A DNA stretch of 64,000 nt from contig JAJFIC010000018.1 of assembly GCA_021775315.1 (NCBI GenBank), forward strand, positions 1-64,000, read 5' to 3'. How positions within the stretch are numbered: the first letter of the stretch is position 1; every line of letters starts with the position of its first letter. Of this stretch, positions 2,496-22,721 are shown piece by piece. The translations under genes were made by a program, and so were the position numbers. This DNA comes from Paracoccaceae bacterium (GTDB lineage: Bacteria > Pseudomonadota > Alphaproteobacteria > Rhodobacterales > Rhodobacteraceae). The notes beneath the pieces are model-generated. The model did not search any database. It was not told the DNA's origin and saw only the letters and a list, made by a program, of their open reading frames with translations.

Positions 2496-4642
2496 CCCGA
2501 AACCTCCGGAAACTCAAGGCGGCGCCGTTGCCTGCGGGCCTGAAGGGACGTAATAAACGAGGTGCGAACGCCTGCCCACCACCGCTCAAGCCCGCCGGGA
2601 TTATGCACCACATCGGCGCGATAAAACGACGGGCATAGCACCGCCGCATCGGCAACCTCGCCGCAATTGCCACAGCCAACGCAGGTCTGATCAATGCTGG
2701 CAACCGGGTCGTCGCGCAGCGGATCATCCAGCCTTTTTAGGCTAAGAGATGGGCAACCGGACAAGCGAATGCAGGCGTGATCGCCCGTGCAAACGTCGCT
2801 GTCCACGCCAAATCGCGGCACATCCACACGCCGACCTTGTTGCACCGCCACAGCGCGCAGCGGCTTTTCGCGGCGTTGTTTGTTCAGCATACATTCAGAC
2901 GACGCCACGATGATTTTCGGCCCGTCATAATCCGTGGTTAACGCCTCGCGGAACACATCGCGCATTTTGGTGACATCATAGGTGTGGTCGATCTGGCGGA
3001 TCCATTTGACCCCGACACCCTTCAGCGCGTCCGAGATCGGATGCCCGGTTGATTTGCTGACATTGTCAGCTCTGGACGACAGCACATCTTGCCCGCCGGT
3101 CGCGGCTGAATAGAAGTTGTCAACGATGATCGCTACGCTGTCGGAATTATTAAAAACCATATTGCCAATGGATGATGACAAGCCGTTATGCCAAAACCCG
3201 CCATCGCCAAGGATCGAAATCGCCCGCTTTTCGCCACCGCCGTCAAACGCCGCGTTCGAGGCCGGCCCAAGCCCATAGCCCATCGTCGAGCCGCCGATTT
3301 CAAACGGCGGCAAACTGCCAAACAAATGGCACCCAATGTCGCCGGCAATCTGGTGCTGGCCCAGTTCCTGTTCCACCAATTTCAGGGCGGCAAATATCGG
3401 ACGTTCAGGGCAACCGGTGCAAAACCCCGGCGGGCGGATCGGGACAGTTTTTGACAGATCAGGGATTTCAACACTGTCCGCATTTGGTGCGCGAACCTGT
3501 CCCGGTAGCAAATCCGGGGCCGCTTTTCGCAAAAATGCGGTCAATCCGTCCAGCACAATTTGCCCGGAATATTCACCCGCCATCGGCAACATGTCTTTGC
3601 CATGCAGTTTCGTTGAACTACCAGCGCGGTTCAGCATTGAACCCAAGTTCTGTTCAATGAATTCGGGTTGGCCTTCTTCGACGACCAACAGGGCGTCTTT
3701 GCCCTGAGTAAAGGCCAGAAACTCGTCAATGATCAGCGGGTAGGTGACGTTCAGAACGTAAATCGGCACCTCGGTGTCGCCAAAACTATTTGCCAGCCCA
3801 AGGCGTTGCAACCCACGGATCACGTTGTTGTACATGCCACCCTGAACCACTATCCCGACCGGGGCTTTTTGCGGGCCGAACTGTTCGTTCAGCTTGTTTT
3901 CGACGATGAATTTTTCCGCCGCTGGCCAGCGTTTGTTCACCTTGTCCTGCTCGTGGATGTAAGACATCGGCGGCAGGATGACCCGGCTGAAATCGCGGCG
4001 CGGATTGGCCAGTGCGTCTTTCACGCTTAGCTTGGGCGGTTTGTTGTCGCGGGTTTCAAAGCTGCCGGTCACATGACAGGACCGGATCCGAACCATCAGC
4101 ATAACCGGAGTGTTTGAGGCCTCTGACAGCTCGAAACCTTGTTCGACCGAGCGCCTGATAGAGGGCAGGTTCGGGCGCGGGTCCATCAGCCAGAACTGCG
4201 ATTTCATTGCAAATGCGTGGCTGCGCTCTTGCATGATTGACGAGCCTTCGCCGTAATCTTCGCCCAAGATCACCAACGCGCCGCCATTCACCCCGGATGA
4301 TGACAAATTGGCCAACGCGTCCGACGCCACATTAACCCCGACCGGGCCTTTGAAGGTCACAGCACCACGGATCGGATAATGGACAGACGCCGCCAGCATC
4401 GCTGCCGCTGCGGCCTCAGACGCATTTGCCTCGAACCGCACCCCAAGCTCGCCCAGCAAGTCCTGCGCATCCGCCAGCACGTCCATTAAATGGCTGATCG
4501 GTGCGCCCTGATAACCGCCGACATAGCCGACACCGCATTCCAGCAGGGCCTTGGTGATCGCCAATATCCCCTCGCCGGTGAACGTGTCGCCGTCCCCAAG
4601 CCGCAGATGTTCCACCTCAGCCTTGAAAGATCGTTCCGCCAT
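2492..4642 (-). CDS. iorA: indolepyruvate:ferredoxin oxidoreductase, alpha-type subunit
   Basis: Thiamine-diphosphate and iron-sulfur subunit paired with iorB, 716 residues. An N-terminal pyrimidine-binding domain (LGDGDTFTGEGILAITKALLE) is followed by the domain II/TPP-binding region; the TPP-Mg motif is visible as SILGDGGFWHNG, preceded by GDIGCHLFGSLPPFEIG. The tail carries ferredoxin-like cysteines (DVCTGDHACIRLSGCPSL and TCVGCGNCGE ... LCPSF), as in IorA proteins. I place the start at MAERSFKAEV because a GGGGGAA ribosome-binding site lies just upstream; an in-frame ATG 57 bases earlier would add a poorly coding extension. First gene of the iorA-iorB operon and divergent from the D-amino-acid dehydrogenase gene, so the gap of about 280 bases should hold both promoters. 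Confidence 0.92.
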   Translation of the reverse strand: MAERSFKAEVEHLRLGDGDTFTGEGILAITKALLECGVGYVGGYQGAPISHLMDVLADAQDLLGELGVRFEANASEAAAAAMLAASVHYPIRGAVTFKGPVGVNVASDALANLSSSGVNGGALVILGEDYGEGSSIMQERSHAFAMKSQFWLMDPRPNLPSIRRSVEQGFELSEASNTPVMLMVRIRSCHVTGSFETRDNKPPKLSVKDALANPRRDFSRVILPPMSYIHEQDKVNKRWPAAEKFIVENKLNEQFGPQKAPVGIVVQGGMYNNVIRGLQRLGLANSFGDTEVPIYVLNVTYPLIIDEFLAFTQGKDALLVVEEGQPEFIEQNLGSMLNRAGSSTKLHGKDMLPMAGEYSGQIVLDGLTAFLRKAAPDLLPGQVRAPNADSVEIPDLSKTVPIRPPGFCTGCPERPIFAALKLVEQELGQHQIAGDIGCHLFGSLPPFEIGGSTMGYGLGPASNAAFDGGGEKRAISILGDGGFWHNGLSSSIGNMVFNNSDSVAIIVDNFYSAATGGQDVLSSRADNVSKSTGHPISDALKGVGVKWIRQIDHTYDVTKMRDVFREALTTDYDGPKIIVASSECMLNKQRREKPLRAVAVQQGRRVDVPRFGVDSDVCTGDHACIRLSGCPSLSLKRLDDPLRDDPVASIDQTCVGCGNCGEVADAAVLCPSFYRADVVHNPGGLERWWAGVRTSFITSLQARRQRRRLEFPEVSG

Positions 4643-4920
4643 GTTTCCCCCGCCGTGATGTGCCGCCGAATTCTGCACGCGACAACAAGAGCGGATCACA
4701 TTAGGCCGTAGATGGCAACAGAGGTTGCAATTCCAATTGGCGAACTACGATCGTTCGTCGCAAGCAGTCAGATGGCGAAATGACGTTCTTTTGACCGTTG
4801 GCATAATTTGCTTTTGTGCGCCGGAAATACGCCGCAGCATTGCGCTTGCGCATTTGTGATGCCAAAAACGCGGCCACGCACTGAAACGCAAGCGCGTGCA
4901 CAGATTGACAGGAGGGGCCC

Positions 4921-8531: not shown

Positions 8532-11500
8532 ATGACAAAACACACTCCTATCGAACGCAGCTACCAATTGACCGACCGTTACAGCGTCGAACCAACCCGC
8601 GTGTTTCTGACCGGCACGCAGGCGCTTGTGCGCATTCTGATTGATCAGGCCCGCCGCGACAGGCAGGCGGGGCTAAATACCGGCGGGTTTGTTTCGGGCT
8701 ATCGCGGCTCGCCTCTTGGGGCGTTTGATCTGGAATTGTGGAAGGCTAAATCCCTGCTCGATGAACATGGCGTCGGTTTCCTGCCAGCGGTGAACGAGGA
8801 TCTGGGGGCCACCGCCATTCTTGGCACGCAGCAGGTCGAAACCGATCCAGCCAGAACCGTCGATGGTGTGTTTGGCATGTGGTACGGCAAGGGTCCGGGG
8901 GTTGATCGTTCCGGCGACGCGCTGAAACACGGCAATGCCTACGGATCATCGCCAACCGGGGGTGTTTTGGTTGTGGCGGGCGACGACCATGGCTGCGTTT
9001 CGTCATCCATGTCGCATCAATCCGATGTGGCGTTTCTGTCGTGGTTCATGCCGGTGCTGAACCCTGCCTCGGTTGCCGAATATCTCGAATTTGGCGCCTA
9101 TGGTTATGCGTTGTCGCGGTATTGCGGCAGTTGGGTCGGCTTCAAGGCCATTTCGGAAACTGTTGAAAGTGGCCAGTCTGTTGTTTTGCCCAAGGACAGG
9201 GTTTTCAAAACGCCGGACTTCACGCCGCCGCCAACTGGATTGCATTACCGTTGGCCGGATTTGCCCGGGCCGCAGATTGAAGCGCGGCTTGAGGATAAGA
9301 AACACGCAGCGCTGGCCTTTGCTGCGGCCAACCCGATTGACCACGCGATCCATGATCTGAAAGACGCGCGGTTTGGCATTGTGACCACGGGCAAAGGACA
9401 TCTGGACCTGATCGAGGCTTTGCGCCTGTTGGATGTCGACACGGCCACCTGTCACCGGCTTGGCATCGACATTTACAAGGTTGGCATGGTTTGGCCGCTG
9501 GCACGTCCTGCGGCCCTGGCATTCGTTCACGGCAAACAAGAAGTCGTGGTAGTTGAAGAAAAACGCGGCATTATTGAAAGTCAGCTTAAGGAATATTTCT
9601 ATGACTGGCCCGGCGATAAACCGGACCGCATGGTCGGCAAACGTGACGAGGCTGGTGCGCGCCTGATCCCGTGGACGGGCGAGCTGTCACCACTTGCACT
9701 GGTGCCTCTGATCGCCCGTCGGCTGGAAGGGGTGTTTCCGGGTGAAGGTTTCGCGGCCAAGGCGGCAGCCCTGACTGACACGCCGCCCGTATTGCTGTCG
9801 GTTTCCGGCGCGACGCGCACGCCCTATTTCTGTTCAGGCTGCCCACACAACACCTCGACCAAGGTGCCAGCAGGATCGACGGCGCAGGCCGGCATTGGCT
9901 GTCATGTCATGGCATGCTGGATGGATCGCGACACCGCATCTTTGACCCATATGGGCGGTGAAGGTGTGAACCGGACAGGTTCTGCGCGCTTCACGGGTGA
10001 TGGCCATATTTTTCAAAATCTGGGCGAAGGGACGTGGTATCATTCCGGGTCATTGGCGATCCGCCAATCTATCGCGGCTGGCATCAACATTACCTACAAA
10101 ATTCTTTACAATGACGCGGTGGCGATGACGGGTGGCCAACCTGTCGATGGTCCGGTCAGCGTCGCGGCCATCGCACATATTTGCCGCGCCGAAGGGGTTA
10201 AGCGGATCGCGCTGGTGTCTGACATGCCGGAAAAATTCGCTCCCTCTGAACTGCCCAAAAACCTGTCGCTGCATCACCGCCGCGATCTTGATCAGGTGCA
10301 ACGGGAACTGCGCGACGTTAAAGGCGTTTCCGTTCTGATTTATGAACAGGTCTGCGCCACCGAAAAGCGTCGCCGTCGCAAGCGCGGCACGATGGAAGAC
10401 CCCAAAAAACTCGTCCTTATCAACCCTTTGGTGTGCGAGGGCTGCGGCGATTGTTCCGTTGAATCAAATTGTCTGAGTGTCGAGCCGCTGGAAACCGAGT
10501 TTGGCCGCAAGCGAAAGATCAACCAGTCAACCTGCAACAAGGATTATTCCTGTGTGAACGGGTTCTGCCCCAGTTTCGTGACCCTCGAAAACGCGGTGCG
10601 GAAAAAGAAAACCGGTGCGAATATCGACGCGCTGGCCCTTGCGGCCTTGCTGCCGCTGCCGAATATCAAACCGCTGAACACGCCTTATGATCTGCTGGTG
10701 ACAGGGGTCGGCGGGACTGGTGTGGTGACCGTGGGTGCGCTGATTACCATGGCCGCGCATCTTGAAGGGATGGGGGCCAGTGTTCTGGATTTCACCGGTT
10801 TCGCCCAGAAATTCGGTGCGGTTATTTCCTTTGTGCGACTTGCCCAAGCGCCTGAGGCCCTAAATCAGGTGCGGGTGGATAACACCACTGCTGCGGCTGT
10901 CATTGGCTGCGATATCGTTGTCACATCGTCGGCCAAAGCCTCGGCCACCTATCACAAGGGCACAAAAATCGCGCTAAATATGGCGGAAATGCCAACGGGG
11001 GATTTGGTGAAATCCCGCGACGCCAGCTTGCACAAAGATCGGCGGGTTCAGGTGATTTCACAAACTGTCGGGGCTGAAAATCTGGGGGCGTTTGATGCAA
11101 ATAGGGCGGCAGAAACCCTGCTGGGTGACAGTGTTTTTGCCAATGTGATGATGTTGGGCTTTGCGTGGCAAAACGGGCTTGTGCCGGTCGCGCGCGATGC
11201 GCTTTCACAAGCGATTAACCTCAATGGTGTTGCGGTTGAAAAGAACCACGCGGCCTTTGCCTTTGGTCGCCTGATCGCGGCCAATTCCAGTGCTGTGGAC
11301 AGTGTGCTTGTTCAAGCACCCCCACCAGAAGAAACGCTGGACGCCAACATTGCCCGCCGTGTGGCGTTTTTGACCGAGTATCAGAACGCCGCCTATGCGG
11401 ATCAGTATCGCCGTCAGATCACGCAGTTTCGCCAAGCCCGCACCGGGCCTAAGGGCGATGAGCTATGCCAGACTGCCGCAAAATCCTTGTTCAAGCTGAT

Positions 11501-11954
11501 GGCGTTTAAGGATGAATACGAGGTTGCACGGCTGCATCTGGACCCGGTGTTCACAAGTTCCCTTGCCGAGGATTTTGAGCCAGGCTTCAAAATCAATTAC
11601 CATCTGTCCCCCCCCATGCTGCCCCTTGGCAAGGATGGGCGCGGCAGGCCGGTAAAGCACCGTTTTGGCCCCTGGATGCGCCCGGTTTTTCGCGTCCTGG
11701 CGGGCGTAAAAGCACTGCGGGGCACATGGTTTGACCCTTTCCGTTTTGTCGCCGAACGGCAAACGGAAATCGCGCTGATCGGTTGGTATGAGCAGTTATT
11801 GGCCGCAGCAGGCCGTAGCGATGGCAACCACGAACTCTGGATGGATATCCTGCGCGCCCCGATGGATATTCGCGGCTATGGTCCGGTTAAGGCAGAGGCG
11901 GTTGAAAAGGTCCAAAAGTCAGTTGCGGAAAAACTTGCGGCAATGGTGGCTTAA
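8532..11954 (+). CDS. fused indolepyruvate ferredoxin oxidoreductase (alpha+gamma)
   Basis: 1140-residue single-chain indolepyruvate:ferredoxin oxidoreductase. Domain order: pyrimidine-binding domain (TGTQALVRILIDQA ... GGFVSGYRGSPLG), TPP-binding domain (CSGCPHNTSTKVP, then a GIGCHVMACWMDRDT and GDGHIFQNLGEGT region), iron-sulfur region (NPLVCEGCGDCSVESNC ... CPSF, about residues 635-680), POR-gamma domain (VTGVGGTGVVTVGALI, about 722-737) and a C-terminal DUF6537-like region. Substrates in characterised relatives are aryl-pyruvates. It is a second, independently organised copy of the activity encoded by the split iorA-iorB pair 4 kb away. ATG start with AGAGGG upstream. Probably controlled by the divergent Lrp-type gene. 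Confidence 0.93.
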   Translation: MTKHTPIERSYQLTDRYSVEPTRVFLTGTQALVRILIDQARRDRQAGLNTGGFVSGYRGSPLGAFDLELWKAKSLLDEHGVGFLPAVNEDLGATAILGTQQVETDPARTVDGVFGMWYGKGPGVDRSGDALKHGNAYGSSPTGGVLVVAGDDHGCVSSSMSHQSDVAFLSWFMPVLNPASVAEYLEFGAYGYALSRYCGSWVGFKAISETVESGQSVVLPKDRVFKTPDFTPPPTGLHYRWPDLPGPQIEARLEDKKHAALAFAAANPIDHAIHDLKDARFGIVTTGKGHLDLIEALRLLDVDTATCHRLGIDIYKVGMVWPLARPAALAFVHGKQEVVVVEEKRGIIESQLKEYFYDWPGDKPDRMVGKRDEAGARLIPWTGELSPLALVPLIARRLEGVFPGEGFAAKAAALTDTPPVLLSVSGATRTPYFCSGCPHNTSTKVPAGSTAQAGIGCHVMACWMDRDTASLTHMGGEGVNRTGSARFTGDGHIFQNLGEGTWYHSGSLAIRQSIAAGINITYKILYNDAVAMTGGQPVDGPVSVAAIAHICRAEGVKRIALVSDMPEKFAPSELPKNLSLHHRRDLDQVQRELRDVKGVSVLIYEQVCATEKRRRRKRGTMEDPKKLVLINPLVCEGCGDCSVESNCLSVEPLETEFGRKRKINQSTCNKDYSCVNGFCPSFVTLENAVRKKKTGANIDALALAALLPLPNIKPLNTPYDLLVTGVGGTGVVTVGALITMAAHLEGMGASVLDFTGFAQKFGAVISFVRLAQAPEALNQVRVDNTTAAAVIGCDIVVTSSAKASATYHKGTKIALNMAEMPTGDLVKSRDASLHKDRRVQVISQTVGAENLGAFDANRAAETLLGDSVFANVMMLGFAWQNGLVPVARDALSQAINLNGVAVEKNHAAFAFGRLIAANSSAVDSVLVQAPPPEETLDANIARRVAFLTEYQNAAYADQYRRQITQFRQARTGPKGDELCQTAAKSLFKLMAFKDEYEVARLHLDPVFTSSLAEDFEPGFKINYHLSPPMLPLGKDGRGRPVKHRFGPWMRPVFRVLAGVKALRGTWFDPFRFVAERQTEIALIGWYEQLLAAAGRSDGNHELWMDILRAPMDIRGYGPVKAEAVEKVQKSVAEKLAAMVA

Positions 11955-12028
11955 GGATCAGGCAGAATGCTTCTGGACAGGGCTGTACAGGTTCACTACG
12001 TTTGGGTCAGCCTCAACCCGGAACATTC

Positions 12029-12673
12029 ATGTCGGCAAGCCCAACGTCACCGCAGAAACCTGAACCCGTCCGTCGCACCAACCGCGACGACTGGCTGAAT
12101 GCAGCACTTGAAATTCTGATCGACGAGGGCATTGAGCAAGTCAAGGTTTTACGACTTGCCGAAAAGCTGGGCGTCGCGCGATCGTCGTTTTACTGGTTTT
12201 TTGAAAGCCGGGGCGCATTGCTGCAGGCATTGCTGGAAAGCTGGACCACGAAAAACACCGGCGCCATTACGCGGCGCGCCAACCTTGTCACCGAAACCAT
12301 TACCGAGGCCGTGTTGCACGTCTTTGAATGTTGGGTGGATGATCGGAATTTTGACGCGAGGCTGGATTTCGCCATTCGCGAATGGGCGCGCAGGGAGCCC
12401 GATATTCGCACCGCGATAGAACAAGCCGACACCACCCGGATCAAGGCCCTGTCGGACATGTTCGTGCGCCACGGTTATCCGGAACAACAGGCCTTTATCC
12501 GCGCCCGGATCCTTTATTTTACCCAAATCGGATATTACGCGCTTGTCGATTATGAAAGCCTGACAGACCGGGCGCAATTCGTTGACGATTATATCCTCGG
12601 CTTTACCGGAAAAACCCCGACAGCGGCAGAACGCGCCCGCTTTAATGACAGTTTGCAAGGCTTGAAAAAATGA
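12029..12673 (+). CDS. TetR/AcrR-family transcriptional regulator
   Basis: TetR-type repressor of about 214 residues. The N-terminal HTH is clear (LNAALEILIDEGIEQVKV, LAEKLGVARSSFYWFF, RGALLQALLESW), followed by an all-helical ligand domain with no recognisable ligand. I take the ATG at MSASPTSPQ; an upstream TTG in frame would add nine residues without a ribosome-binding site. Its stop overlaps the start of the M24 gene by four bases (ATGA), so the regulator is translationally coupled to the DddP-like gene and heads the osmolyte cluster. It probably regulates its own operon; this is inferred from position. Confidence 0.9.
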   Translation: MSASPTSPQKPEPVRRTNRDDWLNAALEILIDEGIEQVKVLRLAEKLGVARSSFYWFFESRGALLQALLESWTTKNTGAITRRANLVTETITEAVLHVFECWVDDRNFDARLDFAIREWARREPDIRTAIEQADTTRIKALSDMFVRHGYPEQQAFIRARILYFTQIGYYALVDYESLTDRAQFVDDYILGFTGKTPTAAERARFNDSLQGLKK

Positions 12674-13923
12674 CAAATACACCGTTCAAAGACGACCGGA
12701 AACTCGCGTATCTGAACACCGAAGGCGCGGAAAAGCCGCTGAAGTCACCGGTCAGTCCAGCAACGCTGGCCACAGCCCGGGCTTATCGACTGGGGCGGTT
12801 CCGCGCCGAAATGGCCCGGCGGGACGTTGGCGCGCTGTTGCTTTATGATCCGATCAATATTCGCTACGCCTTTGACAGTTCAAACATGCAGGTCTGGACC
12901 GCACATAACCCCATGCGATACGCGCTGATCTTGGCGGATGGCCCGGCGGTGATGTTTGAATTCAAAGGCTGCGAGCATCTCAATGAAGGCCTGCCAGGGA
13001 TTGACGAAATTCGCACGGCGCAAGGTTGGATGTTCATGTCGCATGGTGACAAAGCCCCCGCGCAGGTGGGCGACTGGGCAGACGAAATCGCCGATCTGAT
13101 GCGCCAGCATGTGCCGGGCAATATGCGTCTGGCGGCTGACAAACTGGACAGCCCCGGCGTGCAGGCCCTGTCTGATCGACAAATTACCACCCTTGAAGGG
13201 ACCGAGATTACTGAGGTCGCCAGGTCGATAAAATCGCCCGAGGAACTGGACCTGATGCGCTGGACCATCCGGGTTTGCGAGGCCGGGATGGCACGCATTT
13301 ACGAACACTCGGTTCCCGGTGTCACAGAGCGCGAATTATGGGCGCATCTGCATTTTGAAAACGCCCGCTCGGGCGGTGACTGGCTGGAAACCAAGTTGTT
13401 AACCTGTGGGCCGAACACAAACCCGTGGTACAAGGAATGTTCGGATCGGGAATGCGAACTGGGCGAAATGATCTCATTTGATACGGATATGATCGGCCCT
13501 TATGGCTATTGCGCTGATATTTCGCGGTCGTGGACCTGTGGGTATGTGCCGATGAACCCCGTGCAAAAACGGATGTATGCAACCGCGCTTGAGCAGATCA
13601 ATCACAACCTTGACCTGCTGAAACCGGGAATGGATTACGCTGAATTCAACGAAAAAAGCTGGCGCATTCCGGCGGGTCATGTGGATTATCGATACTCGCT
13701 CGCGCTGCACGGCGTTGGCATGGCTGACGAATGGCCGGTCGTGCCTTTGCATGTGGATTGGTCGGACCGCGCAGCATCCGGTCGGTTTGAACCCGGCATG
13801 GTTTTATGCGTTGAAAGCCTGATGGCTGAGGCCGGTTCGGAATCCATCAAACTTGAAACGCAGGTGTTGATTACTGAAACCGGAACCGAACGTCTGGATA
13901 CCTTCCCGTGGGAGACGCCGTGA
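12670..13923 (+). CDS. M24-family metalloenzyme, DddP-like (DMSP lyase homologue)
   Basis: 417-residue pita-bread-fold (M24) protein that resembles the DMSP lyase DddP more than peptidases. DddP cleaves dimethylsulfoniopropionate to DMS and acrylate. Shared blocks: LLLYDPINIRYA with SSNMQVW and HNPMR (residues 57-83), GGDWLETKLLTCGPNTNPW and FDTDMIGPYGYCADISRSW (270-288), HGVGMADEWP (347-356). All six DddP metal ligands have counterparts: D271, D273, D283, H347, E382, E396. The Asp and Tyr reported near the DddP active site match D353 and Y342. Creatinase, the other non-peptidase M24 enzyme that would fit beside a sarcosine-type dehydrogenase, lacks these ligands. Alignment is from memory, so a DddP paralogue with another substrate remains possible. 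Coupled to TetR upstream and EamA downstream. Confidence 0.75.
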   Translation: MTNTPFKDDRKLAYLNTEGAEKPLKSPVSPATLATARAYRLGRFRAEMARRDVGALLLYDPINIRYAFDSSNMQVWTAHNPMRYALILADGPAVMFEFKGCEHLNEGLPGIDEIRTAQGWMFMSHGDKAPAQVGDWADEIADLMRQHVPGNMRLAADKLDSPGVQALSDRQITTLEGTEITEVARSIKSPEELDLMRWTIRVCEAGMARIYEHSVPGVTERELWAHLHFENARSGGDWLETKLLTCGPNTNPWYKECSDRECELGEMISFDTDMIGPYGYCADISRSWTCGYVPMNPVQKRMYATALEQINHNLDLLKPGMDYAEFNEKSWRIPAGHVDYRYSLALHGVGMADEWPVVPLHVDWSDRAASGRFEPGMVLCVESLMAEAGSESIKLETQVLITETGTERLDTFPWETP

Positions 13924-14786
13924 GCCTGCTTCCCGCGTTATTTGGACTTTTGGCCGGGGCATTGTTCGGACTGAACGTGCATATTCAGAGCAAAGGTCTG
14001 GATGAGGTCGACGGCCTGACGGGGGCTTTTCTTTCGGTTGGCACCATGGCCGCGTTGCTTTGGTTTCTGTCACCGTTTTTCACCGAATGGCGCTGGTGGC
14101 TGACGGATGCGGCGGTGATCTTTATGTTATGCGGGATCTTTTTTCCCGCCGGGGGACAGGCGTTTCAAATAGCGTCTATTCGCAAGGTTGGGCCGGCATT
14201 GACCTCGGCCGGGGGGGCGGCAGCGCCGGTTTTTGCCGTGTTTGCCGCCGTGATGTTTCTGGGCGAGTCCTTTGGCCTGCAAGCCGCGGCTGGTCTGACG
14301 CTGATGATTGGCGGATTGATCCTTAGCGCGGTCGGAACAAAAGGCATTAAACGCGGCTGGCCGCTTTGGGCGCTGTTGCTGCCTCTTGCGGCTTCGCTGA
14401 TGCGTGGCATTGTGCAACCGATCACAAAATACGGCTATGCCGAGGTGCCCAGCCCGTATTTTTCGACATTGGTGATGGCGTCGGTTTCAACCCTTGTTCT
14501 CTATGCTCTGCTTGTCGGCCTGAAGCGTCGCCCGACGATCAACGCCGCTAATCGTGGCTATATGTGGTTTGCCATTAGCGGGATCTTTAACGGTTTTGGC
14601 ATTTTGTCCCTGAACACCGCGATCCGCCTTGGCGAGGTGTCGTTAGCCTCGCCTCTGGCGGCAACGACGCCGCTGTGGTCGCTGCTGTTTGGTGTGATCA
14701 TATTTCGCCGCGAAAAATTGGGGATGCAGCATCTGGTGATTGCCGTGATGGTGGTTTGCGGCGCGGTGCTGATTGTCACGCGCTAG
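13920..14786 (+). CDS. EamA/DMT-family membrane transporter
   Basis: Drug/metabolite-transporter superfamily permease of about 288 residues with roughly ten predicted membrane segments in two EamA repeats (the first ends near GLTLMIGGLILS, the second near LVIAVMVVCGAVLIVTR). The second repeat shows the family's conserved block SLASPLAATTPLWSLLFGVIIF. I use the GTG that overlaps the previous stop (GTGA), with GGGAGA just upstream; a GTG 12 bases earlier is less likely. Direction and substrate are unknown. Its position between a DddP-like enzyme and a demethylating dehydrogenase suggests it moves a methylated osmolyte or a breakdown product. Confidence 0.88.
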   Translation: MSLLPALFGLLAGALFGLNVHIQSKGLDEVDGLTGAFLSVGTMAALLWFLSPFFTEWRWWLTDAAVIFMLCGIFFPAGGQAFQIASIRKVGPALTSAGGAAAPVFAVFAAVMFLGESFGLQAAAGLTLMIGGLILSAVGTKGIKRGWPLWALLLPLAASLMRGIVQPITKYGYAEVPSPYFSTLVMASVSTLVLYALLVGLKRRPTINAANRGYMWFAISGIFNGFGILSLNTAIRLGEVSLASPLAATTPLWSLLFGVIIFRREKLGMQHLVIAVMVVCGAVLIVTR

Positions 14787-14859
14787 ATGCAAAATGAATT
14801 GACGCGAATCGAAATCTAGACACTACTGTACAGATAGCAATCCGGGGATGGGGGACGAC

Positions 14860-17274
14860 ATGAAAAGCAATTACCGAGTGGTCGTGATTGGCGGCGGTGT
14901 GGTGGGGGCCTCGGTCCTGTATCATCTGGCGAAAATGGGCTGGACCGATGTCGCCATTGTTGAACGTTCAATTCTGACCGCCGGGTCAAGCTGGCACGCG
15001 GCTGGCGGTGTGCACGCCCTGAACGCCGACCCGACAATGGCGGCCTTGCAGGGCTATACCATCGACTTGCTGTCGAAAATTCAGGAAGAAAGCGGTCAGG
15101 ACATTGGGCTGCACATGACCGGCGGTATCACTGTTGCCTCAACACCCGAACGCTGGGAATGGCTGCAATCGGCCTATCGCATTTTTCAGACAATCGGCAT
15201 CGAAGATTGCTATTTGATGACGCCCGCGCAGATCAAGGAAAAATGCCCGATTATGGACATCACCGGTGTTCTGGGCGGGCTTTGGGCCGACCGCGAGGGC
15301 TATGTTGACACCACCGGAACTGTTCACGCCTATGCCATTGCGGCGAAAAAGATGGGTGCCGAGGTGATTGAGCACACCAAGGTTGATGATTTGAAACAAC
15401 GGCCAGACGGCACGTGGGATGTCATCACCGAAAAAGGCGTCATTCACGCAGAGCACGTGGTTAATGCCGGTGGATTATGGGCCAAACAAGTCGGGCGCAT
15501 GGCGGGGCTTGACCTGCCGGTCAGCCCTCTGGCGCACCATTATTTTGTGACCGAAAGCATCCCCGAAGTTGCGGCGTTGGATTTTGAGGTTCCGATGACC
15601 GTGGATCTTGAAGGGTTCACCTATATGCGGCAGGACCAAAAGGGGGTTCTGATCGGAATTTATGAGCTGAACCACCAGCATTGGAACATGGACGGCGCGC
15701 CGTGGAATTATGGTTTTGAGCTGATCCAGGAAGATACGGACCGCATCGAACGGGAATTGATGATGGCGTATCAGCGTTATCCGGCGCTGGAACATGTCGG
15801 CATCAAGAATTGGGTCAACGGCGCGTTTACCTTTTCGCCCGACGGCAACCCATTGGTCGGGCCAGTGCGCGGCGTGCGCAACTCTTGGCTGGCTTGTGGC
15901 GTCATGGCCGGGTTCCTACAAGGCGGCGGCGTTGGCAAAACGCTGGCCGAATGGATGATCTTTGGTGAGACCGAGGCAGACGCCTGGTCGATGGACATCG
16001 CGCGCTACGGCGAATTTGCCTCAAACCGCGAATATATCCGCCAGACCACCGGGCAGTTCTATTCCCGCCGTTTTGTTATGACATATCCGAACGAACAATT
16101 ACCTGCCGGGCGCAAGCTGAAACGCGCACCGGCCCATACCGCGATGGACAATGTGGGCTGCGTATGGGGCGAAAGCTGGGGGCTGGAAGTGCCGTTGATG
16201 TTTGGCCCCGAAGGGTTCCGTGAAACGCCAACGCTGAACCGCTCGAACGCCTTTGACGAGGTTGCGAAAGAGGTCAAGGCCGTCCGTGAAAACGTCGGTC
16301 TGCTGGATATTTCCGGCTTTTCCCGGTTCGAGGTCAAAGGCCCGAATGCCGAGGCTTGGCTAGATCGGATGTTCGCCACCAAACTGCCAAAACCGGGCCG
16401 CGCAAGGTTGGCGGTCATGCTGGCCCCGTCAGGACGGCTTAAGGGCGATTTGACCCTGTTTAACTGGGGTGACGGCAGCTATTGGATCATGGGCAGTTAT
16501 TACCTGCGCGAATGGCACATGCGCTGGTTTGATGATTATCTCAGCGATGGTGTCGAGTTGCGCGACATTTCGGATGCAACGGTCGGGTTTTCGATCACCG
16601 GGCCGAAATCGCGCGAGGTTCTGGCCAAACTGACCCATCAGGATGTCAGCAACGCGGCGATGCCGTTTCTGGCCTGTCAGACGCTTGATATCGGGCTGGT
16701 GCGCGCCAAAGTCGGCCGCCTGTCTGTCTGCGGCGAATTGGGATACGAGATCAACTGTTCAGCCGCTGAACATATCACCCTGCGTGAAACCCTGCTGGAG
16801 GCGGGCGCCGAATTTGGCATCCGTGAATTTGGCTTTTATACGATGAATTCGCTCCGGTTGGAAAAAAGCTTTGGCATCTGGTCGGCTGAATTCAGGCAGG
16901 AATACACGCCCGCTGAAACAGGAATGGATCGCTGGATTGATTGGCAGAAAAAAGGTTTCACAGGACGCGAGGGCGCGATCAAGGCACGCGATGAAGGGGC
17001 GCCCGCCAAGGTTTTGGTAACGCTTGAAATTGATGCCGGAAATGCCGACGCCAGCGGTTATGAACCCGTTTGGCAGGGCGATACACGGGTTGGATACGTA
17101 ACTTCAGGCGGCTATGGCCATCATGTCAAAAAATCACTGGCGCTGGCGTTGATAGACCCGGCAAGTGCTGAAACAGGCACAGAATTAGCGGTGCATGTGG
17201 TGGGCAAATTAAGGCCCGCAAAAGTCATCGCAGCCTCGCCTTACGACCCGGCAGGTCAAGCGATGCGGGGCTAG
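14860..17274 (+). CDS. FAD-dependent dehydrogenase with GcvT domain (dimethylglycine/sarcosine dehydrogenase-like)
   Basis: 804-residue two-domain demethylating flavoenzyme. Residues about 1-375 form a DAO-type FAD domain with VVVIGGGVVGASVLYHLAK at the start. The motif TAGSSWHAAGG carries the histidine that binds FAD covalently in dimethylglycine and sarcosine dehydrogenases. From about residue 430 on there is an aminomethyltransferase (GcvT) domain, which in relatives passes the released formaldehyde to tetrahydrofolate. Start at the second ATG (MKSNYRVVV) because GGGGGAC lies four to five bases before it; the ATG four codons upstream lacks a spaced site. Two bases separate its stop from the MttB-family gene. 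The substrate is likely an N-methylated amine such as dimethylglycine, sarcosine or a betaine product; which one is not visible. Confidence 0.88.
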   Translation: MKSNYRVVVIGGGVVGASVLYHLAKMGWTDVAIVERSILTAGSSWHAAGGVHALNADPTMAALQGYTIDLLSKIQEESGQDIGLHMTGGITVASTPERWEWLQSAYRIFQTIGIEDCYLMTPAQIKEKCPIMDITGVLGGLWADREGYVDTTGTVHAYAIAAKKMGAEVIEHTKVDDLKQRPDGTWDVITEKGVIHAEHVVNAGGLWAKQVGRMAGLDLPVSPLAHHYFVTESIPEVAALDFEVPMTVDLEGFTYMRQDQKGVLIGIYELNHQHWNMDGAPWNYGFELIQEDTDRIERELMMAYQRYPALEHVGIKNWVNGAFTFSPDGNPLVGPVRGVRNSWLACGVMAGFLQGGGVGKTLAEWMIFGETEADAWSMDIARYGEFASNREYIRQTTGQFYSRRFVMTYPNEQLPAGRKLKRAPAHTAMDNVGCVWGESWGLEVPLMFGPEGFRETPTLNRSNAFDEVAKEVKAVRENVGLLDISGFSRFEVKGPNAEAWLDRMFATKLPKPGRARLAVMLAPSGRLKGDLTLFNWGDGSYWIMGSYYLREWHMRWFDDYLSDGVELRDISDATVGFSITGPKSREVLAKLTHQDVSNAAMPFLACQTLDIGLVRAKVGRLSVCGELGYEINCSAAEHITLRETLLEAGAEFGIREFGFYTMNSLRLEKSFGIWSAEFRQEYTPAETGMDRWIDWQKKGFTGREGAIKARDEGAPAKVLVTLEIDAGNADASGYEPVWQGDTRVGYVTSGGYGHHVKKSLALALIDPASAETGTELAVHVVGKLRPAKVIAASPYDPAGQAMRG

Positions 17275-17275
17275 A

Positions 17276-18835
17276 ATGGGACCCAAACCTGATTCTGAAC
17301 CCGACCGCAAACGCCGGGGTGGGCGGGCACAAAAACAGGCCGACGCGCATCGGTCGGCCCGGATCGTCAATTACCGACAATTGCGGCACCCGTTTCAGCC
17401 GCAAGGTATTTTTTCCGACGATCAGGTCATGGCGATGCACGAGGCCGCCCTGACCATGCTGGAAACGCTCGGCATAAAAATTCTGCTGCCCGAGGCGCGA
17501 CAGGTTCTGGCGGCGGCCGGCGCGATTGTCGATGAAGACAGCCAAATGGTGTATTTTGGCCGGGACATTGTTCAAGCGGCCCTAAAAACCGCACCCCGTT
17601 CGTTTCGTCTGCGCGCGGCAAACCCAATCCGCGAACGGCAATATGAGCCCGGTGCGCTGATTTTCACAGCCGGATCGGGCTGCCCAAACGCGACCGATAT
17701 GGAACGAGGCCGCAGACCCGGCAGCCTGCGCGATTTTGAAGAGGCGATCCGCCTCCAGCAAAGTTTCGACGTGATCCACAAACATGGACCATCCGCAGAA
17801 CCGCAGGACGTGCCGATTCAAAACCGCCACTACGCCATGATCCGAGCGCAAATGACGCTTGGGGACAAGCCAATGTTCGTTTACGCACGCGGGCGCGGGC
17901 AAATTGAACAGAGTCTGGAATTGATCCAGCTTGGCCTTGGGCTGAGTGACGACGTTTTCAAAGACGGCGTGTGGGCGACCACTGTCATCAATACAAATTC
18001 GCCGCGTCAGATCGACAAGCCAATGGCGCAGGGCATCATCGACTTTGCCCGCGCTGGTCAGATGTCGATCATCACCCCGTTTTGTTTGGCAGGCGCAATG
18101 GCACCGGTAACGGTCGCCGGGGCGCTTACGTTGCAACATGGCGAAGCACTGGCCTGTATCACGCTGGCCCAGATCGCCAATCCCGGCGCGCCGGTCAGTT
18201 ACGGTGGCTTTTCCTCGAATGTAGACATGAAATCAGGCGCGCCTGCTTTTGGCACGCCTGAACATGTTAAAATGCAGCTTGGCTCGGGCCAGTTGGCGCG
18301 GCTGATCGATTTGCCTTGGCGCTCGGCAGCGGGGTCCGCCAGCAACATGGCGGATGCGCAGGGTGCGACGGAAAACGTGATGGGTGTCTGGGGTGCGCTG
18401 CAATCCAACGCGACGATGGTTGTGCATTCGGCTGGCTGGCTGGAAGGTGGGCTGTCCTTTGGTTATGAGAAATTCATCACCGATATCGAAGCCCTGCAAA
18501 CCGTTGCGGAACTGTGCAGCCCGACCCCTGCGGATGCGGCAGCAATCGGGCTTGATGCGCTGGCCGAGGTTGAACCGGGCGGCCATTTCTTTGCCGCCCA
18601 ACACACGATGGATCGGTATGACACTGCGTTTTACGAACCAATAGTGGCCGACCTTTCAAACTTTGGATTGTGGTCCGAGTCAGGCGGTAAATCCGCCGCA
18701 GAACGCGCGCTTGATGTCTGGAAAAACACCTTGCGCGACTATCGCCCACCCGCAGGTTCTGGGGAAATCGCCGACCGGATCGCGCGTTATATCGAAGATC
18801 ACGAGGCCGCTGGCGGGGCTGCCGTGCTTGACTGA
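17276..18835 (+). CDS. MttB-family methyltransferase, non-pyrrolysine type
   Basis: 519-residue member of the trimethylamine methyltransferase (MttB) superfamily. The family's barrel is visible from about residue 30 (FSDDQVMAMHEAALTMLE) through GAGSGC-like TAGSGCPNATD, VINTNSPRQ, TPFCLAGAMAPVTVAGAL and SYGGFSSNVDMKSGAPAFG. It reads through without any in-frame UAG, so it belongs to the non-pyrrolysine group that includes glycine-betaine methyltransferase MtgB. No corrinoid protein or reductive activator gene lies nearby. It starts two bases after the dehydrogenase stop and is clearly in the same operon. It probably demethylates a quaternary amine (glycine betaine, proline betaine, carnitine) or acts on a related osmolyte; the exact substrate is open. 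Confidence 0.87.
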   Translation: MGPKPDSEPDRKRRGGRAQKQADAHRSARIVNYRQLRHPFQPQGIFSDDQVMAMHEAALTMLETLGIKILLPEARQVLAAAGAIVDEDSQMVYFGRDIVQAALKTAPRSFRLRAANPIRERQYEPGALIFTAGSGCPNATDMERGRRPGSLRDFEEAIRLQQSFDVIHKHGPSAEPQDVPIQNRHYAMIRAQMTLGDKPMFVYARGRGQIEQSLELIQLGLGLSDDVFKDGVWATTVINTNSPRQIDKPMAQGIIDFARAGQMSIITPFCLAGAMAPVTVAGALTLQHGEALACITLAQIANPGAPVSYGGFSSNVDMKSGAPAFGTPEHVKMQLGSGQLARLIDLPWRSAAGSASNMADAQGATENVMGVWGALQSNATMVVHSAGWLEGGLSFGYEKFITDIEALQTVAELCSPTPADAAAIGLDALAEVEPGGHFFAAQHTMDRYDTAFYEPIVADLSNFGLWSESGGKSAAERALDVWKNTLRDYRPPAGSGEIADRIARYIEDHEAAGGAAVLD

Positions 18836-18936
18836 TAAAGCCAACCCGTGAATTTTCGCCGGGTCTGGTGTGAAAACAAGGTAGCACCGGGGCGCAAAAT
18901 ATGGTTTGGCTAACCGCGCAACAAACGGAAATGACC

Positions 18937-19974
18937 ATGCCAACAAAAACCGCCTTTATTACTGGTATAACCGGCCAGGACGGATCGTATCTGGCAGAAT
19001 TGCTGCTGGACAAAGGTTACCAGGTGCACGCCACCTTGCGCCGCTCGTCGGTGTTTACCACGCCGCGCATTGACCACATATTCAACCACCCGCGTCTGCA
19101 CACCTATCACGGCGATCTGGCTGACAGCTCGAACTTGCATCGGTTGATCGCGGAAATTAACCCGCAGGAAATCTATAACCTTGGGGCGCAAAGCCATGTT
19201 GGCGTGTCTTTTGAGGTGCCGGAATACACCGCCGAGGTGACAGGGATCGGCACCGTGCGTCTGTTGGATGCGATCCGTGACAGCAAGGTCGATTGCCGGT
19301 TCTATCAGGCCTCGACCTCTGAATTGTTCGGCGGTATTCCGGGCACTGAGCCGCAAAGCGAAACGACGCCGTTTTACCCGAAATCCCCTTATGGAGCGGC
19401 CAAGATTTATGCCTATTGGGTGACGGTGAATTACCGCGAGAGCTATGACATGTTTGCCTGTAACGGCATCCTGTTTAACCATGAAAGCCCGCGACGCGGC
19501 GAAACCTTTGTGACCAAAAAGATCACCCAAGCGGTGGCGCGGATCACTCAGGGACGGCAGGATGTTCTGAAGCTTGGTAATATTGACGCGATGCGCGACT
19601 GGGGTCACGCGCGCGATTATGTGCGGGCCATGTGGCTGATGTTGCAACAGGACACGCCGCAGGACTATGTGATTGCCAGCGGTGAAACCCATTCGGTTCG
19701 CGAATTTGTGACGCTTGCCTTTGCAGAGGTTGGCACAAAAATTGATTGGCAGGGCAGCGGTGTTGACGAGATCGGCATCGACAGCGCGACGGGCAAAACT
19801 CTGGTTCAGATTGACCCATTTTATTTCCGGCCAGCCGAGGTCGAATTGCTGTTGGGTGATCCCAGCAAAGCCGAACGTGAATTGGGTTGGACGCGCGAAG
19901 TATCCTTTGCTGAACTTGTCGCTGGCATGGTGCGCTATGATATGGAAAACGACGGTTTTGGCGGGCCGGAGTGA
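18937..19974 (+). CDS. gmd: GDP-mannose 4,6-dehydratase
   Basis: First committed enzyme of GDP-L-fucose synthesis (GDP-D-mannose to GDP-4-keto-6-deoxymannose), 345 residues. Short-chain dehydrogenase fold with the NADP motif [17 protein letters not shown] at the N-terminus and the catalytic YxxxK in [29 protein letters not shown] is a hallmark of Gmd. ATG chosen six bases after CGGAA; two upstream in-frame ATGs have no usable site. The stop overlaps the GTG of the RmlC-like gene (GTGA). The partner fcl lies 1.8 kb downstream, separated by a fucosyltransferase gene on the other strand. Confidence 0.95.
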
Positions 19975-20504
19975 GCATTGATTTTGACATTCAACCCTCG
20001 GAAATCCTTGAGGGCGTGAAAATCCTGACGCCGTCTGTGTTTGAAGAGGCGCGCGGTAATATCTGGACTTCTTACCGGGCGGACGAGGTTGACGGCCTAT
20101 TACCGGATGGGATGTCGTTCAAGCATGACAAGTTTTCGCAATCCAAACACAACGTGCTGCGCGGCATTCACGGCGACCACAAATCCTGGAAACTGGTGAC
20201 CTGTGTTTATGGTGAAATTCATCAGGTCGTGGTGGATATGCGCGAAGGCTCAGCCAGTTATCTGAAATGGCAACGCTTTGTGATCAATCGCGCCAACCAG
20301 CACCTGATCCTGATCCCGCCGGGCATGGGCAACGCCTATTACGTGTCAGCCGAGGCCGCAGTTTACCATTATAAGCTGGCCTATCAGGGCGACTACATAG
20401 ATGCAGACGAACAGTTCACCGTGCCTTGGGATGACCCGCGCCTGAACATCGACTGGCCAACCACTGACCCGATCCTGTCTGCCCGGGATGGTCGCGTTAG
20501 CTAA
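19971..20504 (+). CDS. RmlC-like nucleotide-sugar 3,5-epimerase family protein
   Basis: 177-residue cupin of the dTDP-4-dehydrorhamnose 3,5-epimerase family. Matching blocks are [53 protein letters not shown] and [13 protein letters not shown]. The RGxH histidine is kept, but the usual 'GFAHGF' histidine region reads GMGNAYY and the 'FDVAVD' region reads HQVVVD. GTG start overlapping the gmd stop, so it is translationally coupled to gmd. Since its partner makes a GDP-sugar rather than a dTDP-sugar, it probably epimerises a GDP-4-keto-6-deoxy sugar, which is inference. No rmlA, B or D is present. Confidence 0.8.
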
Positions 20505-20510
20505 GCCACA

Positions 20511-21377
20511 TTAAAGCGTAATCCAGTCCTGTGAAATGATGTCGTGCACCTGCTTGGTGGGATCAGCAAACCAGCGTTTTGGGGCGACCACGATCTTATC
20601 GCTGCGCGGATTAAGCCACGCCCCCCACCACGAAAATGACGAGTTCGCCAAAATATGATGATGGCAAGCATTCATCAGGCGGATATCTTCGTAATTTGTA
20701 GCGGCGCCATTATGGCTCATATAACGAACCTCAAACGGCAGTTTCAGGTTTTCCCTGACCCAATCAGGATCGTCGGAAAAGGCATAGAAAACTGGTTCTT
20801 TGTCGGTATTTTCAGCCATATACGTCGCCGCACGCTGATAATAATCCAAATCACAGGTGCCAAGCACCGCGTTGAATTTCGGGTTGGTGACGTAGTCGCC
20901 ACGACGAATATGCAGGGAAACCGGCAGGCAGTTTTCCATACCGTCAAGTGCGGCCAGGTTTTCGGCACTCGGCGGCGTCACAAAAGTCAGCGCCTGACGG
21001 ACGACCGCGGCATGATCACGGAAATATTTCTCACTTTGCCAATAACCGTGCAGGAACGTGTCGTCGCCCAATGTCTCGAACGCCGGATCATAAGCCGTTG
21101 CCTTTTCGCGGAATACATTCAGACCTCGGCCGGTTAATTTGCCGCCGATATAAGACGCCAACCCCTGCGTACGCATGGGCGGCAAAGACGAGGGTCTGGC
21201 CTCGCGGCAGCCATGGCCGAACCGATGCAGGCCCAGATCAAATTCAACCGCCCTCGTGCGATTAAAATAGCTGGTATCAAGCTGCAATTCGACGCCAAGC
21301 CTTGTCGCCAGTGCCTTGCCGGTCGCAAGTTGGAACATTTGGTTTCCAAGCCCGCCTATGATGTGAACCACTATCAT
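20511..21377 (-). CDS. GT11-family alpha-1,2-fucosyltransferase
   Basis: 288-residue glycosyltransferase of family 11. The N-terminal donor-site motif IGGLGNQMFQLATGKALA and the GDP-fucose-binding HxRRxD-type motif SLHIRRGDYV are plain; the C-terminal part has NSSFSWWGAWLNP, typical of the family. It should transfer L-fucose from GDP-fucose to galactose in a surface polysaccharide. It is encoded on the strand opposite to gmd, the epimerase gene and fcl, ending six bases after the epimerase stop, so it must have its own promoter in the 380-base gap at its 5' side. The acceptor is unknown. Confidence 0.92.
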   Translation of the reverse strand: MIVVHIIGGLGNQMFQLATGKALATRLGVELQLDTSYFNRTRAVEFDLGLHRFGHGCREARPSSLPPMRTQGLASYIGGKLTGRGLNVFREKATAYDPAFETLGDDTFLHGYWQSEKYFRDHAAVVRQALTFVTPPSAENLAALDGMENCLPVSLHIRRGDYVTNPKFNAVLGTCDLDYYQRAATYMAENTDKEPVFYAFSDDPDWVRENLKLPFEVRYMSHNGAATNYEDIRLMNACHHHILANSSFSWWGAWLNPRSDKIVVAPKRWFADPTKQVHDIISQDWITL

Positions 21378-21572
21378 CTCAATCGCCTATTCTGATTGCT
21401 GCCATCGCAAATTCGTCCAAGTGCTTTCAGCAAACCCGTCTCGGCGATACCGGCGGGGGCTTTCTAAACACAGACCACAAATACGTGCCCTTACGCGGAT
21501 GGGCAAGTTTGTTGTTGGAAACAGAAGTGGGTTCGGTGCAACTGCATTGTCTGGCGCTTTTTTTGGCGCCAT

Positions 21573-21698
21573 GGACTTTTTATCACTAGGGCAAAAATTG
21601 AGGATCTGGCGGCAGTCTGGCTTTACAAACTGGCCATTTGGGGCGAATACATCAATGTGGATGAACCGGTTTTCTGGCGTAGAATGATCCGCAACTGA
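21573..21698 (+). pseudogene. possible 3' remnant of an unidentified gene
   Basis: The 381-base gap between the fucosyltransferase and fcl genes has no intact gene. One frame ends in a stretch that reads like real protein for about 40 codons before its stop: GLFITRAKIEDLAAV, then WLYKLAIWGEYINVDEPVFW and RRMIRN. Upstream the same frame turns into Cys/Trp-rich low-quality sequence and then a stop, with no start codon or ribosome-binding site. This would fit the tail of a decayed glycosyltransferase or other polysaccharide gene, but I do not recognise the family. An overlapping frame gives 88 residues that look random. Weak evidence. Confidence 0.3.
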
Positions 21699-21758
21699 AC
21701 TTTGGCGGACCTGAGTAATGTCCGATCCAAGAAGCAATATTGAGAACTGGAGAAATAC

Positions 21759-22721
21759 TTGACTAAGCGGATTTTCGTTGCCGGTCACAGGGGCATGGCT
21801 GGGCGTGCGCTTGTTCGCCGCCTTGAGCAGGACGGGGAAAACCAGGTATTTGGTCGCCCGCACAGCGAACTCGACTTGATCGACCAAAGCGCCGTACGTG
21901 CATTTTTCGAGAAAAAGCATATAGATGAGGTCTATTTCGCCGCTGCCAAAGTGGGCGGAATCCATGCCAACAGCACTTATCCGGCAGAGTTCATTTACGA
22001 CAATCTGATGGTTGAAACCAATACCATCCATGCAGCGCATCTGGCGGGTGTGCAGAAGTTCATGTTTCTTGGCTCTAGCTGCATCTACCCGCGACTTGCC
22101 AGCCAGCCGATCAGCGAAGACGCCCTTTTGGCCGGCCCGCTTGAACCCACGAACGAGGCCTACGCCATCGCCAAAATCGCCGGGATCAAGCTGTGTGAAA
22201 GCTATAACCGGCAATACGGGCGCGACTATCGCAGCGCCATGCCCACGAACCTTTTCGGGCCTTATGACAATTTTCACCCTGAAAACTCGCATGTGGTTCC
22301 TGCCCTCATTCGACGGTTCCACGAGGCCGTTGAGAGCGGAACCAATGAGATCGTTATCTGGGGCAGCGGCAAGCCCATGCGGGAATTCATGCATGTGGAT
22401 GACATGGCCTCGGCCTGTGTGCATTTGATGAACCTGCCGCAAGAAACCCTTGCTGAACAAACCGAGCCGATGCGCGGTCACATCAACGTAGGTACCGGCA
22501 AGGACTGCACCATACGGGAATTGGCTGAAACTCTGGCAGATGTGGCTGGGTTTAAAGGGAAACTCGTGTTTGACACAAGCAAACCCGATGGAACACCACG
22601 CAAATTGCTGGACATCTCGCGGCTGAATGCACTGGGCTGGGAGCCGAGCATAAGCCTGCGTGACGGCTTGCAATCTGCCTTTGACTGGTTCGTCGCAAAT
22701 CAGGGGCATTTTCGGGGGTAA
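21759..22721 (+). CDS. fcl: GDP-L-fucose synthase
   Basis: Second enzyme of GDP-L-fucose synthesis (3,5-epimerisation and NADPH reduction of GDP-4-keto-6-deoxymannose), 320 residues. NADP motif [17 protein letters not shown], active-site serine region FLGSSCIYP and YxxxK in [10 protein letters not shown] are all present, as are [18 protein letters not shown] and [16 protein letters not shown]. The start is TTG, preceded by GGAGAAA at five bases' spacing; no ATG or GTG in frame fits. Works with gmd upstream to feed the GT11 fucosyltransferase. Confidence 0.95.

Follow-up and report, generated by a model that had tools for sequence, protein, structure and literature searches.

The window analysed here, a stretch of 64,000 nucleotides, encodes on its forward strand a DddP-like protein of the M24 fold (12670–13923; 417 aa, from an ATG at 12670 to a stop ending at 13923) that belongs to a sister family of the DMSP lyase DddP and not to DddP proper. 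With a probability of roughly 55%, we consider that the substrate of this family is an onium carboxylate, a betaine being the most likely, and that it serves in the catabolism of quaternary amines. The gene is the second in a tight run ordered TetR, M24, EamA, DMGDH-like DAO-GcvT and MttB, and many of its relatives, in marine and legume-associated bacteria, lie beside genes for oxygenases or for methyl transfer.

The fold is established by sequence and by model. A Pfam profile search detected the M24 domain, and the best sequence matches in the PDB were RdDddP (4B28, 5e-96) followed by RlDddP (4RZY at 4e-94, then 4S01 and 4S00). The best-matching true peptidase was a prolidase at 7e-12, and the protein scored 325 bits to DddP against 48 to the best prolidase. 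An AlphaFold2 model built from 46 related sequences reached a mean pLDDT of 92.7. Searched with Foldseek, it returned DddP chains for all top four hits (TMq 0.89, rmsd 1.5–1.6 Å, 40–41% identity), followed by Xaa-Pro dipeptidases at an rmsd of 3.4 Å, while creatinase and ectoine hydrolase also lay beyond 3 Å.

The first-pass annotation of this DNA had recognized counterparts of the six metal ligands and of two further active-site residues of DddP, and the alignment bears this out in full. The DddP metal site comprises three Asp, two Glu and one His (PMC5395565). The ligands D295, D297, D307, H371, E406 and E421 of RlDddP align with D271, D273, D283, H347, E382 and E396 of the window protein, and Tyr366 and Asp377 with Y342 and D353. 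Trp95 of DddP corresponds to Trp76, and PMC5395565 assigns the binding of the sulfonium group in DddP to one Trp and one Tyr. The six ligands are kept in 84–85 of the 85 clade members, and Asp353, Trp76 and Tyr342 in every one of them, from which it follows that the match to DddP is not due to chance. In DddP, one M24 His is replaced by Asp377 and a second by a Phe (PMC5395565), which we take to be Phe278 from our alignment. At the first position, the window protein carries Asp353 (codon 13726–13728, +), the counterpart of the proposed catalytic base of DddP (PMC4108388, PMC5395565); His stands there in prolidase 1PV9 and in one MetAP-like and one creatinase-like protein of the window's own genome. 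The second is occupied by Tyr254 (codon 13429–13431, +), where M24 peptidases, including 1PV9, have a His; this residue is Tyr in 85/85 clade members, against Phe in 19 of 20 canonical DddP. Fifty positions are conserved inside the clade and inside canonical DddP, yet different between the two groups.

The separation from DddP is just as apparent from scores and phylogeny. With the curated DddP model NF043017 (NCBIfam), the window protein reached 384.9 bits for a cut-off of 600. Contig C3 of the same genome encodes a canonical DddP, which scored 853.6 bits and shares 77% identity with RlDddP, and contig C60 a true DmdA (688.9 bits with the NCBIfam DmdA model, cut-off 410). The comparison with DddP that the first-pass annotation had proposed was carried out as a maximum-likelihood tree of 67 proteins, from which fungal, SAR116 and Oceanimonas DddP2 proteins were left out; DoeA was omitted from the final tree, as rooting on it produced branches as long as 10 and a scatter of rows. 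The canonical clade, including RdDddP and RlDddP, was recovered with 100/100 support on a stem of 1.03 changes and excludes the window protein, which falls in a separate clade (95/91) nested in a wider sister clade (100/97). A position outside DddP was one of the two outcomes that the first-pass annotation had coupled, the other being a lack of DMS production, as speaking against its own reading.

The neighbouring genes named in the first-pass annotation were likewise confirmed by their overlaps, Pfam domains and PDB matches. The putative operon opens with a TetR-family regulator (12002–12673, +; Pfam TetR_N, 41 bits), whose last bases overlap the start of the M24 gene by 4 (ATGA). The M24 gene is followed by an EamA-family permease of the DMT superfamily (13908–14786, +; Pfam EamA, 92.6 bits); provided that the permease starts at GTG 13920, the likelier start, the M24 gene overlaps both neighbours by 4 bases. 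A DAO-GcvT flavoprotein of the dimethylglycine dehydrogenase family lies 61 bases further on (14848–17274, +; 542 bits to DMGDH 4P9S; Pfam DAO, FAO_M, GCV_T and GCV_T_C). After a single base comes a homologue of the MttB/MtgB-family (PF06253) quaternary-amine methyltransferases (17276–18835, +; Pfam MTTB, 584 bits), whose PDB matches are 4YYC, 2QNE and the glycine betaine methyltransferase 9YCE, at about 255 bits. The regulator scored 22.9 bits with the AcuR model (cut-off 247) and is therefore not this acrylate regulator, and the flavoprotein scored 74 bits with the DmdA model (cut-off 410) and is not DmdA. Because of these two results, together with the score below the DddP cut-off, the separate clade and the presence of canonical DddP and DmdA in the genome, we do not file the window protein as DddP; since the catalytic set is kept, it may nevertheless still work in the manner of DddP.

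Downstream of the operon, sugar-nucleotide genes appear to extend over 18901–22721, with GDP-mannose dehydratase-like, RmlC-like, fucosyltransferase-like (minus strand) and GDP-fucose synthase-like products; homologues of the first two also stand behind MttB at L003, the locus of the nearest relative. Upstream are two indolepyruvate:ferredoxin oxidoreductase-like genes (2492–4699, –, and 8532–11954, +), which enclose genes for an FAD oxidoreductase, an alpha/beta hydrolase, an ornithine-cyclodeaminase-like protein and an Lrp regulator.

The genome, a draft of 111 contigs, contains 10 MttB-family genes and more than 12 DAO-GcvT genes, and this abundance makes a single adjacency weak. It also contains one free-standing B12-binding (corrinoid) protein on C45, with RACo pieces on C9 and C51. 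In roseobacters, experiments have established that glycine betaine is demethylated via the MttB-family protein MtgB with a common corrinoid protein, MtgC (PMC12478193). One corrinoid protein serving many methyltransferases would predict such a 10:1 gene count and, given these numbers and the RACo pieces, the MttB homologue of the window can be read by analogy as a subunit dedicated to a further quaternary amine.

The gene associations were examined across relatives. Gene calls at these loci were our own, based on conservation-weighted ORFs, as greedy longest-ORF calling hid real neighbours in GC-rich loci; the resulting counts cover related genomes and short loci and are not phylogenetically independent. 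The clade is carried by 10 of 198 genomes of the window's family (at least 69% identity), mostly alongside a canonical-type copy, and it also occurs in other Proteobacteria and in at least one Acidimicrobiaceae bin. On rhizobial plasmids, 86 Rhizobium and 65 Sinorhizobium records of PLSDB match at the clade or at a more distant level. Three loci (L073, L078 and L079) hold TetR, M24, MttB and DAO-GcvT together, EamA being replaced there by a dipeptide-type ABC transporter, and homologues of the window's TetR (cluster c35) lie near M24, MttB and DAO-GcvT genes at these three loci as well as at L032 and L041. The nearest relative (83%, L003) has the order oxygenase, M24, MttB; a single locus, L160, combines an oxygenase, a MIO lyase, M24, MttB and a GcvT protein. 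At L215, the M24 gene is flanked on one side by a homocysteine methyltransferase gene and on the other by a corrinoid protein gene with MttB behind it, and a RACo gene and a DAO-GcvT gene belong to the same stretch. An apparent M24-MttB fusion at L061 (a 951-aa ORF) proved to be an artefact, its M24 part being read in another frame.

Other arrangements were recorded in passing. A record named 'Oceanobacillus sp. HTM 045', which groups with the window's family and whose name looks wrong, has three DddP-family genes within about 9 kb (L023/L124). Two tandem M24 genes of the wider group, whose products share 68% and 56% identity with the window protein, stand behind HalD-type and Rieske oxygenases at L072 (8331–10897). 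On a plasmid of Pseudomonas sp. MPC6 (L105), a 51% relative is clustered with a Rieske oxygenase, a rubredoxin reductase, and MFS and BCCT transporters, near MmsA and Fe-ADH genes resembling those of DMSP/3-hydroxypropionate clusters. In Rhizobium johnstonii (L103, 15382–20504), two cupins named DMSP lyases occur with electron-transfer flavoprotein genes and an OYE-family oxidoreductase, with formaldehyde-detoxification genes nearby.

The most frequent partner within the clade is an oxygenase. A same-strand oxygenase gene lies within 1.4 kb at 68 of the 85 clade loci and in 63 of these it encodes a HalD-type 2-oxoglutarate enzyme, commonly beside a divergent LysR gene. At canonical dddP loci, none of 20 had oxygenase, MttB, DMGDH-like or corrinoid methyltransfer neighbours. 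The HxD iron motif, which marks hydroxylases and is distinct from the halogenase motif, is present in 91 of 92 HalD-type sequences. All 10 carriers of the M24 clade in the window's family have a HalD-type oxygenase, compared with 24 of the 198 genomes of the family (P about 1e-10), and 14 genomes have the oxygenase without the M24 clade; such one-way co-occurrence would fit an oxygenase acting first. Over 61 loci, M24 and oxygenase protein distances correlate with r = 0.63 (permutation maximum 0.16), a correlation that is also expected from the common ancestry of the genomes. On its contig C107, the window's genome itself has such a LysR-oxygenase pair, with no adjacent M24 gene; the oxygenase is about 81% identical to those of L005 and L007–L009. 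The idea that it was formerly the direct neighbour of the window's M24 gene is uncertain, as its nearest relatives are these loci whereas the window's M24 protein is nearest to that of L003, whose oxygenase fragment is only 60% like the C107 enzyme. As a separate observation, L153 (6920–9062) has a canonical-type DddP beside a HalD-type oxygenase gene that an in-frame TAG interrupts; no other canonical-type copy was seen in this position.

Beyond the window's family, the partnership changes. Near 11 carriers outside the family (58–71% identity, class-wide sample), no HalD-type oxygenase was found at the threshold used, so that a universal partnership with this enzyme is unsupported there and the oxygenase link is one context variant, not a fixed part of the system. 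MttB and DAO-GcvT were close by in 5 of these 11 carriers, and four carriers of one genus in the same sample had neither; the MttB/DMGDH link thus partly replaces the oxygenase link outside the family. Among the clade loci, several have a second enzyme between the oxygenase and M24, or after M24: a Rieske oxygenase with the carnitine monooxygenase CntA as best match, a TauD-type dioxygenase, a membrane hydroxylase-like protein, or a MIO lyase closest to ergothionase. As the oxygenase types differ, they may not act on one common substrate. In Rhizobium, the upstream genes encode LysR, a Rieske oxygenase with best matches to the demethylase entries 4QUP and 3VCA, which we take to be Stc2, and a GbcB-like reductase. 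In three annotated records, the Rhizobium loci lie near proline/4-hydroxyproline catabolic genes or formaldehyde genes, and the trans-4-hydroxyproline pathway genes match those described in PMC4113996. A mandelate-racemase-like neighbour of a distant S. meliloti homologue was considered as a proline-betaine epimerase and set aside, as it had no named match to such a function.

These neighbourhoods point to N-methylated amino acid betaines, from which MttB, Rieske or DMGDH-like enzymes would remove methyl groups. If the mechanism resembles that of DddP (PMC4108388, PMC5395565), a small onium acid would be held by its carboxylate at the two metals and by its onium group at Trp76 and Tyr342, while Asp353 would take a proton and the C–N (or C–O) bond would break. 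Rather than DMSP, the substrate would most likely be a quaternary-ammonium betaine, either intact or already hydroxylated or partly demethylated. In the same pathway, a substrate-specific MttB could pass a methyl group to the common corrinoid protein and the DMGDH-like flavoprotein could strip further ones; many relatives would add an oxygenase, acting as a hydroxylase or a demethylase, from a gene immediately upstream. For the rhizobial members, proline betaine or hydroxyproline betaine types are our best guess. A counterpoint to the betaine reading is that DddP acts on DMSP with the same residues. More tentatively, the whole clade might be a widespread enzyme family on the DddP scaffold, recruited to betaine breakdown after a 2-oxoglutarate or Rieske oxygenase or beside a corrinoid methyltransferase, and cleaving a nitrogen-onium acid. 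If true, marine as well as legume-associated bacteria would carry out a DddP-type lyase reaction in which nitrogen takes the place of sulfur.

Among the alternatives, a hydrolase resembling creatinase or ectoine hydrolase would use water to split a C–N bond of an N-methylated compound, and the DMGDH-like protein would receive the N-methyl amino acid so formed. Creatinase yields sarcosine, and a product of this type would suit a DMGDH-family neighbour; the M24 fold is common to creatinase, DoeA and the window protein, and dipeptide-type SBP_bac_5 transporters occur near some relatives. We find this unlikely, as the DddP ligand set is missing from the genome's creatinase-like and DoeA-like paralogues, whereas the window protein keeps both the additional Asp ligand specific to DddP and the exchange of His for Asp.

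The first-pass annotation had left the choice between a true DMSP lyase and a paralogue cleaving a related onium compound, and our data favour the second option. The first would make the window protein a divergent second DddP, active on DMSP or DMSOP, its gene standing by chance in a demethylation operon. The conserved ligands, Asp377, Tyr366 and Trp95 counterparts and the fold match would allow it, as would the cleavage of DMSOP by DddP enzymes (PMC10686828) and the two canonical-type copies that accompany a clade member within about 9 kb at L023/L124. It is nonetheless rather improbable in view of the score below the cut-off, the position outside the DddP clade, the invariant change of Phe278 to Tyr, the canonical DddP and DmdA in the same genome, the regulator other than AcuR, the neighbours of betaine-catabolism type where DMSP/acrylate genes might be expected, and the terrestrial relatives on rhizobial plasmids with Rieske betaine-demethylase genes beside them. 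An ordinary M24 Xaa-Pro dipeptidase, as suggested by the Pfam domain and by the PGAP name 'Xaa-Pro peptidase family protein' of relatives in PLSDB, is very improbable, with Asp353 and Tyr254 at the peptidase His positions, a score to DddP far above that to any prolidase, and no measurable Val-Pro peptidase activity in RlDddP, which has the same Asp change (PMC5395565).

The distinction between DddP and its sister family bears on environmental surveys, in which dddP is reported as the most abundant bacterial DMSP lyase gene of the ocean (PMC10686828, PMC5395565). The counting rule used for ocean data, at least 40% identity with at least 70% coverage (PMC10686828), applied here against RdDddP or RlDddP, is passed by 42 of the 85 clade members, including the window protein (41.8% identity, 92% coverage). 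A simple similarity search could thus count half of the sister family as DMSP lyase and inflate estimates of the potential to produce DMS, a climate gas. If the betaine-lyase reading is true, part of the dddP counted in ocean surveys would be an enzyme of the sister family, and the turnover of nitrogen osmolytes in the sea and in legume symbionts would gain an extra enzyme. The two families would also offer a natural comparison, Phe versus Tyr at one position with the metal site unchanged, of how M24 enzymes choose between sulfur and nitrogen onium substrates.

In the literature searched, we found no description of a betaine-linked DddP paralogue, and the window protein is best situated by comparison with known systems. 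With DddP (RdDddP 4B28, RlDddP 4RZY; NF043017), it has in common the two-domain pita-bread fold, the six-ligand dinuclear metal site and the counterparts of Asp377, Tyr366 and Trp95; it differs by an identity of only 41–42%, by Tyr in place of Phe278, by the 50 clade-specific positions and by its place below the curated cut-off and outside the clade. Unlike stand-alone dddP, genes of the clade sit in operons with MttB/DMGDH or oxygenases. The M24 Xaa-Pro peptidases have a five-ligand site and two substrate-binding His, whereas the window protein has Asp353 and Tyr254 at these positions and the sixth ligand Asp273. Creatinase and the ectoine hydrolase DoeA, M24-fold enzymes that cleave C–N bonds, have the same fold (Foldseek TMq about 0.7) but not the DddP-type ligand set carried by the window protein. 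The Rieske systems of the stachydrine demethylase (Stc2-type), GbcA and CntA are not known to include the M24 protein in their pathways and have no Rieske counterpart in the window operon, yet such Rieske enzymes are encoded directly upstream of relatives in Rhizobium and others. Finally, the MtgBCDE glycine betaine system of Ruegeria pomeroyi has a substrate-specific subunit of the same kind as the MttB neighbour of the window; no M24 protein appears in the available part of its description (PMC12478193), whereas at L215 such a cluster encloses the M24 gene.
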